Shown in pieces: positions 13,732 through 20,550 of a DNA stretch of 64,000 nt. The notes under the pieces are model-generated. The model was not told the DNA's origin, made no database searches, and saw only the letters and a program-made list of their open reading frames with translations. The translations under genes were made by a program, and so were the position numbers. The stretch is taken from NCBI GenBank assembly GCA_002721275.1, contig PBJZ01000012.1, positions 44,995 through 108,994 on the forward strand. The letters are read 5' to 3'. This DNA is from Flavobacteriaceae bacterium (GTDB taxonomy: Bacteria > Bacteroidota > Bacteroidia > Flavobacteriales > Flavobacteriaceae). Each line of letters opens with the position of its first letter. Positions within the stretch are counted from its first letter, which is position 1.

Positions 13732-14502
13732 TCATTCGTTTAAAATATCTTTTATAAAGTTGTTTATTTTTTGGATTCCGTTTTTTTCAATATAATTGAT
13801 AAAAGCAGAACCAATTATTGCACCATTTGTGTATTTGGTTGCAGTTTTGAATGTCTTAAAATTACTGATTCCAAATCCAACAATAACAGGTGTTTTTAAT
13901 TTCATTGACTTAATTCTAGAAAAATAATCTATTTGTTTTTTGTTAAAGTCACTCTTTGCTCCTGTAACAGATGCACTACTTACCATGTAGATGAATCCTT
14001 TTGAAACTTTATCAATAAATCGAATTCTTTCGGGAGATGTCTGGGGTGTAATTAAAAACATATTATATAATCCATGTTTTTCAAACAAAAATTTGTATTC
14101 ATCATTATAAACATCAACAGGAAGATCAGGTATTATTAGACCATCAATACCAACAATTTCGCATTTTTTACAAAATTTTTTAATTCCATACTGCATTATA
14201 GGATTTAAATACCCCATTACAATTAATGGAATTTTAATTTCCTTTCTGATATTTTCTATTTGTTTGAAAAGTATTTCGGTTGACATGCCGTTTTTTAGAG
14301 CTTTTGATGAACTTTTCTGAATAGTTGGTCCGTCAGCTATAGGATCTGAAAATGGTAACCCTATTTCAATCATGTCTACTTTGGATAATTCAAGCTTTTT
14401 TATTATGTAAGATGTGTCATTAAGATTAGGATGGCCGGCAGAAAAATAAATTGAAAGTAATTTTTTTTCTTTTTTAAAAGCACCATCAATTCTATTTTTC
14501 AT
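13732..14502 (-). CDS. trpA: tryptophan synthase alpha subunit
   Basis: MIEIGLPFSDPIADGPTIQKSS, VGFGISNF motifs; ATGA overlap with trpB. Confidence 0.97.
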   Translation of the reverse strand: MKNRIDGAFKKEKKLLSIYFSAGHPNLNDTSYIIKKLELSKVDMIEIGLPFSDPIADGPTIQKSSSKALKNGMSTEILFKQIENIRKEIKIPLIVMGYLNPIMQYGIKKFCKKCEIVGIDGLIIPDLPVDVYNDEYKFLFEKHGLYNMFLITPQTSPERIRFIDKVSKGFIYMVSSASVTGAKSDFNKKQIDYFSRIKSMKLKTPVIVGFGISNFKTFKTATKYTNGAIIGSAFINYIEKNGIQKINNFIKDILNE

Positions 14503-15680
14503 AGTTTAAAATAATTAATAAAGGTTTCTAGATCTTTATCTCCTCTTCCAGAACAATTAAAAATTAAAATATCGTTAGGTTTAAATTGTTTAGATTCTAA
14601 AATTGCAAATGCGTGAGCTGTTTCAATTGCTGGAATTATACCCTCCATCTGTGATAAAGTTAATCCCCAATCCATTGCCTCTTGGTCAGGTATTGATATA
14701 AATTCAGCACGTTTTGATCTATACAGATGAGCATGAAGAGGACCAACACCAGGGTAATCAAGACCAGCAGATATTGAATAAGGCTCCGTAATTTGCCCAT
14801 CAATTGTTTGCATTAGCAGGGTTTTGCTTCCATGAATTATTCCTTCTTTACCGAGGGCTGACGTAGCTGCACTTTCTCCAGAATCTATACCTTTTCCTGC
14901 AGCTTCAACAGCAATAATTCTAACCCTAAAATCATTTAAATAATGATAATACAATCCAGCCGCATTACTTCCTCCTCCAACACATGCAATTAAATAATCA
15001 GGATAGTCTCTACCTTCCGTTTCTTTTAATTGAGTTTTAATTTCTTCACTAATAACTGATTGAAATCGTGCAACCATATCTGGATATGGATGAGGACCTA
15101 CAACTGAACCGATTATATAATGAGTGTCAACGGGATTATTTATCCAGTCTCGAATTGCTTCATTTGTTGCATCCTTCAGGGTCTTGCTTCCCGATTTTGC
15201 AGCAATCACTTTTGCTCCTAGCATTTTCATTCTAGCAACATTTGGAGCCTGACGCTTTATGTCTAATTCTCCCATATAGACAATACATTCAATTCCCATA
15301 AGAGCGCAAACTGTAGCCGTCGCAACTCCATGCTGACCAGCACCAGTTTCAGCAATAATCCTGTTTTTACCCAGTTTTTTTGCTAAAAGTATTTGACCAA
15401 TTGTGTTGTTAATTTTGTGAGCACCTGTATGACACAAATCTTCCCTTTTCAGATAAATTTTAGCATTATATTTTTTAGATAATCGCTTAGCAAAATAAAG
15501 AGGAGTTGGTCTTCCGACGTATTTCTCCAATAAGTCGTTAAATTCCTTTTGAAAATCTTTTTCAGAAATTATTTTTAAGTAATTTTTTTTCAATTCAGTT
15601 ACATTTGGATATAACATCTCAGGAATGAATGCTCCACCAAAATTTCCATAATAACCTTTCTTATCAATATTATAGTTCAT
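14499..15680 (-). CDS. trpB: tryptophan synthase beta subunit
   Basis: REDLCHTGAHKINNTIGQ, AETGAGQHGVATATV, CVGGGSNAAG. Confidence 0.98.
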   Translation of the reverse strand: MNYNIDKKGYYGNFGGAFIPEMLYPNVTELKKNYLKIISEKDFQKEFNDLLEKYVGRPTPLYFAKRLSKKYNAKIYLKREDLCHTGAHKINNTIGQILLAKKLGKNRIIAETGAGQHGVATATVCALMGIECIVYMGELDIKRQAPNVARMKMLGAKVIAAKSGSKTLKDATNEAIRDWINNPVDTHYIIGSVVGPHPYPDMVARFQSVISEEIKTQLKETEGRDYPDYLIACVGGGSNAAGLYYHYLNDFRVRIIAVEAAGKGIDSGESAATSALGKEGIIHGSKTLLMQTIDGQITEPYSISAGLDYPGVGPLHAHLYRSKRAEFISIPDQEAMDWGLTLSQMEGIIPAIETAHAFAILESKQFKPNDILIFNCSGRGDKDLETFINYFKL

Positions 15681-16296
15681 ATAATTTATTTTTAAATTCT
15701 TCTAATAAATTCAATTTTTTTAATCCAGGCTGGCTTTCAAATTTACTATTTACATCTACAGCGTATATTGGTAGTCTTGTCTTTTTTAAATTGATTAATT
15801 CATCAACATTTTCAATTCCGATTCCCCCACTTAAAAAAAATGGCTTTTCATATTTATAATCCTTTAAAATTGACCATTCAAAAACTGAACCATTTCCTCC
15901 CGGGAGTTTACCTTTTGTATCAAAAAGAAAAAAATCACATTGGTTTTCGAATATTTTCAATTCATCAAAATTAAAACTATCATCCACTTTGAAGGCCTTG
16001 ATTAACTCTATATTTTGTTTATTCATTAATTTAGCACAAAATTCAGGAGATTCATTACCATGAAGCTGAATTGCTTGAAGATTATGGTTTTCAACAGCTT
16101 TGGTTATATACTCAATATTTGAATCAACAAACACACCTGTTTTTTTTATTGTGTTTTTTAATAAAGGAATTTTATCTTTTATATATCTTGGAGAATCTTC
16201 CCAAAAAATAAATCCCATATAATCAGGTTCTATATTTTCAATAGATTTGATATTGTTTGATTCTTTCATTCCACAAATCTTAAGCTTCATTTTCAA
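15670..16296 (-). CDS. trpF: phosphoribosylanthranilate isomerase
   Basis: LKICGMKE, MGFIFWEDSPRY, QLHGNES, LSGGIGIENV. Confidence 0.95.
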   Translation of the reverse strand: MKMKLKICGMKESNNIKSIENIEPDYMGFIFWEDSPRYIKDKIPLLKNTIKKTGVFVDSNIEYITKAVENHNLQAIQLHGNESPEFCAKLMNKQNIELIKAFKVDDSFNFDELKIFENQCDFFLFDTKGKLPGGNGSVFEWSILKDYKYEKPFFLSGGIGIENVDELINLKKTRLPIYAVDVNSKFESQPGLKKLNLLEEFKNKLYEL

Positions 16297-17071
16297 TTCT
16301 TTTTATAAAGTTTAGAGCTGTTTCACCGGGATTTTTTGTCTTCATGAATTTTTCACCTATTAAAAATCCATCATATCCATATGATCTTAAATTTATTATT
16401 GATTCAGAGTTATCAATTCCACTTTCAGAAATTTTCAAAAACTCTTTTGGAATATATTCTGATAGTCTCCTGCTATTGTCCAAGTTCACATTAAATGTCT
16501 TTAGGTTTCTATTGTTCACTCCGATTATATCAATTGAGGGCATTAAAGACTTTTCAAGTTCTATTTGATTGTGAACTTCAAGTACTACTTCAATTCCGTA
16601 TTCTTTTGCAAGAAGTGAAAACTGTTTTATTTCTTTTCTTGATAGAACACTAGCGATTAATAGAATTGCATCGGCCCCGTTTGCTTTTGATTCGATTATT
16701 TGATATTTATCTATAATGAATTCTTTTCTAAGTAAAGGAATTGTAGTTGATGCTCTTGATAAATTAAGATCCTCAAGTGATCCACCAAAATATTTTTTAT
16801 CGGTTAAAACTGATATTCCTGATACTCCAGCATTTTCATAACCTTTTGTGACATTTATAATTGAAGAAAAACTGTTAATACTTTCTTTTGATGGAGATTG
16901 TCTTTTATGTTCAGCAATAATTCCAAATTTACTTTCTTTTAATTTTTTGACTAATGAATTAGTTTTATGATTAAAAAAAGGAGAGGATTTTAAGAAAGAG
17001 GCTGGAAAGTATTTCTTTTTTAATTCAATCTCAATTTTTTTATCAGTAATTATTTTTTCTAGAATTGTCAT
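16280..17071 (-). CDS. trpC: indole-3-glycerol-phosphate synthase
   Basis: FGIIAEHKRQSPSKE, GADAILLIASVL, IGVNNRNLKTF, SESGI; start placed at 17071 (MTILEKII), giving an ATGA overlap with trpD; the longer track ORF runs into trpD. Confidence 0.95.
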   Translation of the reverse strand: MTILEKIITDKKIEIELKKKYFPASFLKSSPFFNHKTNSLVKKLKESKFGIIAEHKRQSPSKESINSFSSIINVTKGYENAGVSGISVLTDKKYFGGSLEDLNLSRASTTIPLLRKEFIIDKYQIIESKANGADAILLIASVLSRKEIKQFSLLAKEYGIEVVLEVHNQIELEKSLMPSIDIIGVNNRNLKTFNVNLDNSRRLSEYIPKEFLKISESGIDNSESIINLRSYGYDGFLIGEKFMKTKNPGETALNFIKRIENEA

Positions 17072-18063
17072 TTTGAGCTCAAATTTTGTAAAATTTTTAA
17101 AGATTCTAATGCCTTTCCACTCAAAATGGATTCTCTTGCCATGAGAAAACCATCCATTGGATCGATATCTAATGCAGTTGATATAGCAATTCCGGCATTT
17201 GCACATACTACATTTTGTTGTGCTTCTGTTCCTTTATTTTGAATTACATTCATAAATATATTTGCAGAAGAAATAATATCTTCCCCACCTTGAATTTGCT
17301 CATGATTAATTTTTGGAACCCTGAAACTATCACTATTTAAAATCATTTCGTTATTATGCGTAAAAGCTTTGGTATTAGTCGTTAAAGATATTTCATCATA
17401 CCCATCCAAAGAATATAAAATTGTATAATTTTTATTGCCTTTTTGAAATAAGTAGTTATAAATTCTTGCCAATTCTAAATTAAAAACACCAGTTAACTGA
17501 TTTCTTGGAAAAGATGGATTAACTAAAGGTCCTAGCATGTTAAAAAAGGTTTTTAGACCAAGTTGTTTTCTTACAGGTCCTACATTTTTCATTGCTGGGT
17601 GAAATAGGGGTGCATGTAATATGCAAATTCCAGCTTTATCTAAACAATTTTTTAGAAAACTTTCATCATTAGAAAAATGAATTCCCAATTTCTCTAAAAC
17701 ATTACTTGATCCACATCCTGAGGATACGCCATAATTCCCATGTTTTGAAACTTTTATATCAGCACCAGCAGTGACAAATGAGGAGAGTGTGGAAATATTA
17801 AAAGTATTTTTCCCATCACCTCCTGTTCCACACAAATCAATTGTGTTAAACTCACTCAAATCAATAGAAATACACAAGTCAAGTAAAGCATTCTTGAATC
17901 CTTCTATTTCCTCAAGGTTGACTCTACGCATCATAAAAATTGTTAAAAACGATGCAATTTGACTATCGTTTAATTTTCCTTCTGCAATATTAATTATTAC
18001 ATCGTAGGCCTCATTTTTAGTGAGACGATCATGATTAATAAGTTTATTGAAAATATCTTTCAT
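17068..18063 (-). CDS. trpD: anthranilate phosphoribosyltransferase
   Basis: DLCGTGGDGKNTFNIST, KHGNYGVSSGCGSSNVLEKLG, NMLGPLVNP. Confidence 0.97.
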   Translation of the reverse strand: MKDIFNKLINHDRLTKNEAYDVIINIAEGKLNDSQIASFLTIFMMRRVNLEEIEGFKNALLDLCISIDLSEFNTIDLCGTGGDGKNTFNISTLSSFVTAGADIKVSKHGNYGVSSGCGSSNVLEKLGIHFSNDESFLKNCLDKAGICILHAPLFHPAMKNVGPVRKQLGLKTFFNMLGPLVNPSFPRNQLTGVFNLELARIYNYLFQKGNKNYTILYSLDGYDEISLTTNTKAFTHNNEMILNSDSFRVPKINHEQIQGGEDIISSANIFMNVIQNKGTEAQQNVVCANAGIAISTALDIDPMDGFLMARESILSGKALESLKILQNLSSK

Positions 18064-18066
18064 GTT

Positions 18067-18630
18067 TCAGGAATTTATCCAATTTTTAATTATTTGTTTT
18101 CCATTTTGAGTCAAAATTGATTCAGGATGAAATTGAACTGAACAAACATCATATTTTTTATGTCTCATTGACATTAGGTGACCATTTAGATCAAAAGAAG
18201 TTGGAACAAGGTCTTTTGGTAATGGTGTGTCAACTACCCATGAATGATATCTTCCAACACTAATTTTTTTTGGCAATCCATCAAATAATATATCATCTTT
18301 AACAATATTAATTGGTGTTGAAACACCATGATATACTTTATCTAGATTAATAAGTTTAGCACCAAACACCTCACCAATGGCCTGTTGACCTAGACATATA
18401 CCTAAGATTTTTTTAGTGGGGGCAAAAAGTTTAATAACTTCTTTTAGTTGGCCGGATTCATCAGGTATTCCTGGTCCTGGAGAGAGTAATACATTATCAT
18501 AAGACTCAATTTCATTTATCTTAAACCGATCATTACGTTTAACAATTACCTTACAATTTAGATCTTCTAGATAATGAACTAAATTATAGGTGAATGAATC
18601 GTAATTGTCTATTAAAAAAATTTTTTTCAT
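18067..18630 (-). CDS. trpG: anthranilate synthase component II (glutamine amidotransferase)
   Basis: IDNYDSFTYNLVHYLE, LLSPGPGIP, GICLGQQAIGE, VQFHPES. Confidence 0.96.
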   Translation of the reverse strand: MKKIFLIDNYDSFTYNLVHYLEDLNCKVIVKRNDRFKINEIESYDNVLLSPGPGIPDESGQLKEVIKLFAPTKKILGICLGQQAIGEVFGAKLINLDKVYHGVSTPINIVKDDILFDGLPKKISVGRYHSWVVDTPLPKDLVPTSFDLNGHLMSMRHKKYDVCSVQFHPESILTQNGKQIIKNWINS

Positions 18631-20030
18631 TTAATATTTTCAGCATTATTTAGAGCCATATCCAATGCACCTAATTTGTTGAATACTTCTTGTAATTCAT
18701 TTTCAGGAACTGAATCAGCAACAATCCCAGCTCCAGCTTGGTATTTCAATTCTTGATTTTTTGACAAAAAAGAGCGAATTATTATAGCATGATTAAAATT
18801 CCCATTAAAATCCATATACCCAATTGCTCCCCCATAAAAATCTCTTTTTGTTGTTTCATAACGATCAATAAGCTTTAAAGCACTATGCTTGGGTGCTCCA
18901 CTAAGAGTTCCTGCAGGAAATGTATCAGCCACAACTTGAAATGCTTTAACCTCTTTTTTCAATAGACAAGTTACTTTAGATACTAAATGAATAACATGGG
19001 AGAAAAATTGAATTTCTCTGTTTTTTTCTACCATAACACTTGAACCATTTCTACTTAAATCATTTCGTGCAAGATCAACTAACATAATGTGTTCACTATT
19101 CTCCTTAGGATCTTTTGCAAGTCTTAAGGCAGACTCGGTATCATTTTTATCATCTCCTGAACGTCTAAATGTTCCAGCTATTGGATGAATCTCTGCTTTA
19201 CCGTTTTCTATTATAATTTGAGCTTCTGGTGAGCTTCCAAAAATTTTGAAATTACCATAATCAAAATAAAATAAATATGGGGATGGATTTATTGATCTCA
19301 GTGATCGGTATACATTGAAATCGTCACCATGAAATTTTTGAGAGAAGCATCTAGATAAAACAAGTTGAAAAACATCCCCCCTAAGACAATGATTTTTTGC
19401 CTTAAGTACAAAATCAATAAATTGTTTATCAGTTAAATTCGAAGTTTTTTTATCAATTTTTTTAAAATGGAATGTACTAATATTATTATTTTTTAAAAGT
19501 TGCTCAACCAACTCTGTATTATGATTTTTTTCATATTTATGAGAGAAAATATGGGCTTCGTGGTTAAAAAGGCTGATGGCAATAACATTTTGATATATCG
19601 CGTAATATAAATCAGGAATATTACTGCTTGGTTTGTTATGATTTAGCTCTATATCTTCAAAATACTCTATTGCCTCGTGAGCTATATAGCCAAAAAGACC
19701 ATTACAAATGAATTTGAATTCATATTCTTTTGTTTTGAATTGTTTTATAAAATCTTGAATTTTTTCAGCAATATCAATATCATTAGAAATGTTTTCGGTA
19801 AACTTATTTCCATCAGGATATTCGGTAATTAGCTGTTTGTTTTTTATCTGTATTGAAGCTAATGGGTTGCAGCATACATACGAAAAGTTCTTATTATTTT
19901 TATCATACTCACTACTTTCAAGAAGTATACTATTAGGGAAAACATCACGTATCTTAAGATAAATACTAACAGGACTTAAAGTATCAGCGAGTATTTTTTT
20001 GTGTTCAGATTGAATATTAAAAGTTTTCAT
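18627..20030 (-). CDS. trpE: anthranilate synthase component I
   Basis: chorismate-binding domain: QLVLSRCFSQ, HPIAGTFRR, VDLARNDLSR, GTLSGAPKHSALKLID, GAIGYMDF. Confidence 0.97.
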   Translation of the reverse strand: MKTFNIQSEHKKILADTLSPVSIYLKIRDVFPNSILLESSEYDKNNKNFSYVCCNPLASIQIKNKQLITEYPDGNKFTENISNDIDIAEKIQDFIKQFKTKEYEFKFICNGLFGYIAHEAIEYFEDIELNHNKPSSNIPDLYYAIYQNVIAISLFNHEAHIFSHKYEKNHNTELVEQLLKNNNISTFHFKKIDKKTSNLTDKQFIDFVLKAKNHCLRGDVFQLVLSRCFSQKFHGDDFNVYRSLRSINPSPYLFYFDYGNFKIFGSSPEAQIIIENGKAEIHPIAGTFRRSGDDKNDTESALRLAKDPKENSEHIMLVDLARNDLSRNGSSVMVEKNREIQFFSHVIHLVSKVTCLLKKEVKAFQVVADTFPAGTLSGAPKHSALKLIDRYETTKRDFYGGAIGYMDFNGNFNHAIIIRSFLSKNQELKYQAGAGIVADSVPENELQEVFNKLGALDMALNNAENIK

Positions 20031-20042
20031 AGTTATAAAATT

Positions 20043-20071
20043 AAAAAGGCTTGTCGTTTAGACAAGCCTTT
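20043..20071 (-). terminator. candidate attenuator terminator hairpin immediately upstream of trpE
   Basis: on the - strand AAAGGCTTGTC-TAAAC-GACAAGCCTTT, a perfect 11-bp stem with 5-nt loop, continuing into TTTTTAATTTTAT; ends ~10 nt before trpE ATG. Confidence 0.8.
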
Positions 20072-20093
20072 GATATTTTCATAGGGATTGAAC

Positions 20094-20150
20094 TTAACGA
20101 TTGATATTCGTTTTTTCAAACCACCACTTATTTAATTTTTTGATATCCAT
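20094..20150 (-). CDS. candidate trp leader peptide MDIKKLNKWWFEKTNINR (18 aa, tandem Trp)
   Basis: ATG GAT ATC AAA AAA TTA AAT AAG TGG TGG TTT GAA AAA ACG AAT ATC AAT CGT TAA on the - strand, between a -7-like box and a terminator hairpin upstream of trpE. Confidence 0.8.
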   Translation of the reverse strand: MDIKKLNKWWFEKTNINR

Positions 20151-20154
20151 TTCA

Positions 20155-20162
20155 CAAATATA
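20155..20162 (-). promoter_or_regulatory. candidate Bacteroidetes -7 box TATATTTG for the trp operon
   Basis: - strand TATATTTG (+ strand CAAATATA), 4 nt before the leader-peptide ATG; no clear -33 TTTG. Confidence 0.6.
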
Positions 20163-20244: not shown

Positions 20245-20550
20245 ATGGATTTATCACAAAAAGATTGGATTTCAGGATTAAAATCTAATGAAAATTCAGT
20301 TTTACTTGATGTAAGATCAATAGAAGAACATACAAATGAACGAATCCCAAATTCTATTTTAATAGATATAAATAAACCGAAGGAGTTTCTTGAAAAATTA
20401 GAATCATTAGACAAAGATAAAAAATACTACATTTATTGTAGGTCAGGAAATAGAAGCTCTAGAGCTTGTCATATTATGAAAAGTATGGGTTACAAAAGCA
20501 CATACAATCTTATGGGTGGAATAATTGAATGGCAAGGTGATATTGAGTAA
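20245..20550 (+). CDS. rhodanese-like domain protein
   Basis: VLLDVRSIEEHTNERIPNSILID...YIYCRSGNRSSRACHIMKSMGY, active-site CRSGNRS loop. Confidence 0.93.
   Translation: MDLSQKDWISGLKSNENSVLLDVRSIEEHTNERIPNSILIDINKPKEFLEKLESLDKDKKYYIYCRSGNRSSRACHIMKSMGYKSTYNLMGGIIEWQGDIE

Follow-up and report, generated by a model that had tools for sequence, protein, structure and literature searches.

What lies between the promoter and the first gene of the trp operon in this flavobacterial genome, and does it belong to a regulatory family that is already known? The question arises from a short intergenic element in the 64,000-nucleotide stretch of DNA analyzed here (the window), where a first-pass annotation had proposed a tryptophan attenuator ahead of trpE. 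The minus strand reads base for base as that annotation described it, with an 18-codon leader open reading frame (ORF) containing TGG TGG and, beyond it, a perfect 11-bp hairpin (20071-20045) that has a 5-nt loop and runs into a U-rich tract, so that an intrinsic terminator stands between the leader ORF and the first structural gene (Table 1). The hairpin ends 15 nt from the trpE start, and the downstream genes follow the order trpEGDCFBA.

Table 1. Features of the trp leader element and trp operon in the window.
Feature	Position	Strand	Basis or remark
Sigma-A type -7 box TATATTTG (consensus TAHHTTTG)	20155..20162	-	sequence; homologue counts
Predicted transcription start, A of the leader ATG	20150	-	4 nt from the box; prediction
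Leader peptide ORF MDIKKLNKWWFEKTNINR + TAA	20094..20150	-	ATG at 20150, TAA ending 20094
Tandem Trp codons TGG TGG	20121..20126	-	within leader ORF
Segment 1: GGUUUGAA (20122-20115) + AACGA (20112-20108)	20108..20122	-	MFE fold, pairing probability
Segment 2: core UCGUU (20100-20096), then UUCAAUCC (20092-20085)	20085..20100	-	fold and comparative
Terminator 5' arm (segment 3) AAAGGCUUGUC	20061..20071	-	sequence, homologues, covariation
Terminator loop, 5 nt	20060-20056	-	sequence
AACGA: loop end and first two 3'-arm bases; antiterminator partner of segment 2 core	20054..20058	-	comparative, fold
Terminator 3' arm (segment 4) GACAAGCCUUU, then U-rich tract	20045..20055	-	sequence, homologues, covariation
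trpE (PF00425 + PF04715)	18627..20030	-	start at 20030; domain scan
trpG (PF00117)	18067..18630	-	domain scan
trpD (PF00591, PF02885)	17068..18063	-	domain scan
trpC	16280..17071	-	start taken at MTILEK; ORF open to 17206; named from position and translation
trpF (PF00697)	15670..16296	-	domain scan
trpB (PF00291)	14499..15680	-	domain scan
trpA (PF00290)	13732..14502	-	domain scan

The element occupies the space between trpE and a divergent gene, a short ORF at 20245-20550 on the plus strand that is rhodanese-like by eye (CRSGNRS) and shares its intergenic region with the trp leader. Because this neighbor is divergent, the hairpin cannot serve as its terminator. A generic repeated hairpin was likewise ruled out, as the pattern GGCTTGTC-N3-8-GACARGC occurs at a single site in the genome itself and in each of seven relatives.

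The arrangement is not what chance would produce in sequence of this composition. When the 214-nt intergenic region was shuffled 20,000 times with its dinucleotides preserved, a short ORF with consecutive Trp codons appeared in 35 shuffles, a comparable terminator in five, and both in the proper order in none; nowhere else in the 64-kb window is a short ORF of this kind followed by a terminator. RNAfold, which the first-pass annotation had suggested running on 20150-20031, gives a free energy of -28.4 kcal/mol (z = -4.7, with 0 of 200 shuffles equally stable), and the minimum free energy (MFE) structure includes exactly the 1:2 and 3:4 helices drawn there by hand, the 1:2 pairs existing as written.

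To place the element among its relatives, we compared 187 trpE upstream regions, 107 of them loci from relatives and the genome itself and 80 from named public genome contigs, with some genomes represented in both sets. At 172 of the 187 loci trpE is preceded by a short ORF in which Trp codons cluster, a few of these probably being chance ORFs, and about 160 of the 172 also have a terminator before trpE. Nearly all 172 homologous leaders hold pairs or triplets of Trp codons while the remaining peptide is variable, so that the conserved part of the leader peptide is the regulated amino acid; the refuting conditions set out in the first-pass annotation, as far as they can be computed, all came out in its favor. 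Most homologues have a U-rich tract after a GC-capped stem, and the distance from hairpin to trpE ranges from about 10 to more than 100 nt. The loci that depart from the standard leader include contig ends, single-Trp leaders (L152, L171) and five genomes of 600 kb that belong to one genus. In three of these reduced genomes (L119, L125, L126) the Trp-rich leader ORF is absent and a decayed GGCTTGTC...GACGGCC hairpin still stands before trpE, as if the terminator had outlived the sensor of the switch. Of 151 genomes of the family, 141 contain the element according to model R1, a covariance model built from the window and 18 relatives (19 sequences); within the genus it lies upstream of trpE in six of seven genomes, the seventh (68% complete) having no trpE match.

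The first-pass annotation had left open whether such an arrangement had been described for this lineage, and clearly it has, as the Bacteroid-trp RNA (RF01692). In 2010 that RNA was listed among candidate cis-regulatory elements of Bacteroidetes (Weinberg et al., PMC2864571), and it was later described as the counterpart of the Escherichia coli trp leader before the Flavobacterium psychrophilum trp operon (PMC6414381), and the F. psychrophilum transcriptome holds clues for leader-peptide attenuation before amino-acid operons (PMC9723704). RF01692 matches the window element over the full model length and on the same strand, in register at the AUG, the consecutive Trp codons UGGUGG and the terminator arm GGCUUGUC, and the element lies directly upstream of the Bacteroidetes trp biosynthesis genes trpEGDCFBA. 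The match reaches 28.4 bits, the gathering score being 49 (E = 0.23 over all 4227 families, or about 5e-5 for one family, obtained by division); the element is therefore not listed at that threshold, and we claim no formal Rfam membership for it. Relatives in the same genus also fall below the gathering score (33-38 bits) and many genomes of the same family lie above it, with 57 of 150 relatives at or above the cut-off and some match in 94 of 150. The nearest records are marine Flavobacteriaceae. As the score falls short of 49 bits, Rfam misses this divergent lineage. We claim that the element is homologous to the Bacteroid-trp RNA and functions as an attenuator; as trp leaders of Bacteroidetes are already known under that name, the window is a divergent representative of a switch known for the group, real and largely expected. 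The element also draws weak sub-threshold hits from other, unrelated Rfam families (mir-7445, SpR14, cyano_het and others), several of them on the opposite strand, and these were rejected. A second RF01692 match in the same genome (C19:153207, 25.9 bits) has no Trp ORF and was taken as noise, as were several further matches near threshold away from trp genes.

The antiterminator is where the original drawing needed correction. It paired UCGUU and AAGUU of segment 2 with AACGA and GGCUU; these pairs exist and the UCGUU:AACGA core is supported, but the structure as drawn is worth just -1.9 kcal/mol, and the best pairing of segment 2 with the terminator (-9.3 kcal/mol) keeps the outer UCGUU:AACGA helix with different inner pairs. 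Across the alignment of 19 sequences, 93.7% of the cells of the core are paired and two of its pairs have changed on both sides, but pairing in the AAGUU:GGCUU half reaches 53% and is weakly supported; for the 2:3 structure as a whole, slid controls never exceed 52% of cells paired. Three pairs of the 3:4 terminator are likewise changed on both sides, and covariation in both the 2:3 core and the terminator exceeds that of shuffles and slid controls. Across 150 distinct homologues, at least six contiguous pairs between segment 2 and the terminator loop and 3' arm were found in 121 (shuffle mean 11.8, maximum 20), with no excess for two control targets. This longest-helix test replaced a fixed 6-nt frame, in which only 41 of the 150 matched fully, since the exact position of the core varies by one or two bases. 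The common helix in relatives is UCGUGA:UCACGA, at the place where the window has UCGUU:AACGA. The comparative evidence thus supports an antiterminator core in which segment 2 pairs with the terminator loop and the start of the 3' arm. The 1:2 helix is statistically weaker than 2:3 (mean z of -1.6 vs. -2.4): a simple helix of at least six pairs between segment 1 and the core occurs in 99 of 141 homologues against a shuffle mean of 60, a modest excess.

Folding of the window sequence reproduces the exclusion between these helices, and the predicted switch behaves as it would have to if a ribosome stalled at the Trp codons blocked 1:2 and allowed 2:3. With the transcript extended to 20053 and segment 1 masked, the antiterminator has a probability of 0.997; with segment 1 free it falls to 0.149, and 1:2 pairing (measured as 20110:20098) rises to 0.85. 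Once the transcript is complete, the terminator (-16.1 kcal/mol) always outcompetes the antiterminator (about -9.3 kcal/mol), which has an equilibrium probability of about 1e-8, so the switch must be kinetic and co-transcriptional.

Flavobacteria lack Shine-Dalgarno sequences and the leader start codons vary among homologues, and translation of the leader ORF is for both reasons something that we infer. The sigma-A type box precedes the in-frame leader ATG in 117 of 148 homologues (shuffle mean 19), at a spacing of 3-5 nt in 45 homologues (shuffle mean 6.9), the spacings clustering at 4-5 nt with a second cluster at 17-19 nt. As the sigma-A box of Flavobacterium occupies positions -12 to -5 (PMC9723704; PMC6847099), the box TATATTTG would set +1 at the A of the leader ATG in the window, and the leader ORF is predicted to be leaderless, with transcription starting at or next to its ATG. 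Leaderless mRNAs are a small minority in the group, accounting for 5.5% in F. psychrophilum (PMC9723704).

Taken together, the best-supported reading, in which we have very high confidence, is a ribosome-mediated transcription attenuator of the trpEGDCFBA operon, and the first-pass interpretation is supported with a corrected antiterminator and a predicted leaderless start. From the observed anatomy, conservation, covariation and in-silico switch we infer a response to tryptophan, in which the trp genes are most likely read only when tryptophan is low. Transcription would begin at or beside the leader ATG. When charged tRNA-Trp is scarce, a ribosome would stall at the two Trp codons and cover segment 1, leaving segment 2 free, and its UCGUU core would pair with AACGA in the terminator loop and at the top of the 3' arm as these emerge from RNA polymerase, so that the terminator would fail to form and trpE would be transcribed. 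When tryptophan is plentiful, the ribosome would translate as far as the stop codon overlapping segment 2, and the 11-bp terminator would form; with no ribosome, pairing of segments 1 and 2 would have the same outcome, and in either case transcription would end before trpE.

Three alternatives to this reading were weighed. The great stability of the terminator over the antiterminator at equilibrium, and the similar hairpins that some reduced-genome relatives (L119, L125, L126) keep without a Trp ORF, would suit a constitutive partial terminator that lowers trp expression irrespective of tryptophan, with a short ORF that is untranslated or irrelevant. However, such a terminator leaves unexplained why consecutive Trp codons are kept at 172 of 187 loci in an otherwise variable peptide, why the antiterminator core covaries with the loop, and why the combination arises by chance less than once in 20,000 shuffles, and we consider it very improbable. 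Translational attenuation, with the alternative folds hiding or exposing the region of the trpE start, draws on the mere 15 nt between hairpin and trpE in the window, but the U-rich tract after the GC-capped stem in most homologues argues against it, and the variable distance from hairpin to gene is not tolerable for masking; its probability is extremely low. A leader that binds protein or tRNA (TRAP-like, T-box), or a small-molecule riboswitch, would also place structured RNA before trp genes, but at the element no further Rfam family attains its gathering score and the conserved features are Trp codons in an ORF, not a binding site, so that this explanation has a vanishingly small probability.

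Beyond the standard arrangement, attenuators of this type occur in several variant forms among relatives. Two Trp leader ORFs, each with its own terminator, stand serially before trpE in Flavobacteriales and Bacteroidales (L114 in G093, L118 in G108, L127 in G125, and L207, L210, L212, L217 and L218). A Bacteroid-trp-like attenuator precedes a monofunctional aspartokinase at L233 (G028:C56:17500-19200, minus strand) and L253 (G150:C76), scoring 77 and 59.8 bits with model R1, in both examined genomes of one genus. These leaders carry Lys codons instead of Trp, (TTG)KLINILNKKDKKVHLRRTS and (TTG)YILSFKKGKKQHIP, and from their sequence the aspartokinase leader looks like a trp attenuator with its specificity changed to lysine. 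A limited literature search returned nothing directly relevant on tandem trp attenuators or lysine leader peptides in Bacteroidetes. At L232 (G039:C1:738136-738267) the leader MTNNNTWWSNSKFYLKR and a terminator precede a DAHP synthase (PF00793), and Trp attenuation thus probably reaches the first step of aromatic synthesis. A leader with three consecutive Trp codons precedes a TrpB-like gene (TIGR01415) at L235 (G059:C4:293201-293332), in a genome without a trpE match, and at L215 a tRNA-like sequence, recognized by eye, lies between the Trp leader and terminator and trpE, which might disconnect the attenuator from its operon.

These features may define a distinct Bacteroidetes subtype, which we propose tentatively and with somewhat less than even confidence: a leaderless leader mRNA, an antiterminator that nucleates on the loop of the terminator and the upper part of its 3' arm and acts only kinetically, and a scaffold that can be re-specified (to lysine before aspartokinase, in one genus) and serially duplicated. 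With the window, a regulatory RNA that has been predicted but little tested is extended to a divergent lineage of marine flavobacteria beyond the reach of the current Rfam model, and the Bacteroidetes version gains a concrete antiterminator model, backed by covariation, that is absent from Rfam's. The predicted leaderless start and the Lys variant raise direct, testable questions about attenuation without a Shine-Dalgarno sequence and about changes of amino-acid specificity.

Among known systems the closest is the Bacteroid-trp RNA itself, which shares with the window its position before trp genes, a leader ORF with consecutive Trp codons, a 1:2-type hairpin over those codons and the terminator arm GGCUUGUC. 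It differs in that many relatives have three Trp codons where the window has two, and in that the Rfam model ends at the 5' arm of the terminator, without the 3' arm or the antiterminator, both of which are derived here. The E. coli trpL leader of Proteobacteria is alike in logic, with tandem Trp codons, alternative 1:2, 2:3 and 3:4 pairings and a U-tract terminator before trpE; however, there is no detectable sequence kinship, and no proteobacterial trp leader family is among the Rfam matches of the window. Moreover, the antiterminator core of the window involves the terminator loop together with the top of the 3' arm, not mainly the 5' arm, and its promoter box (TAnnTTTG), lack of a Shine-Dalgarno sequence and predicted leaderless ORF set it further apart. 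For this last feature the parallel is Sinorhizobium meliloti rnTrpL, which begins with its own leader ATG and yields a terminated transcript (PMC7298713), an arrangement similar to that predicted in the window, although in an unrelated phylum and sequence.
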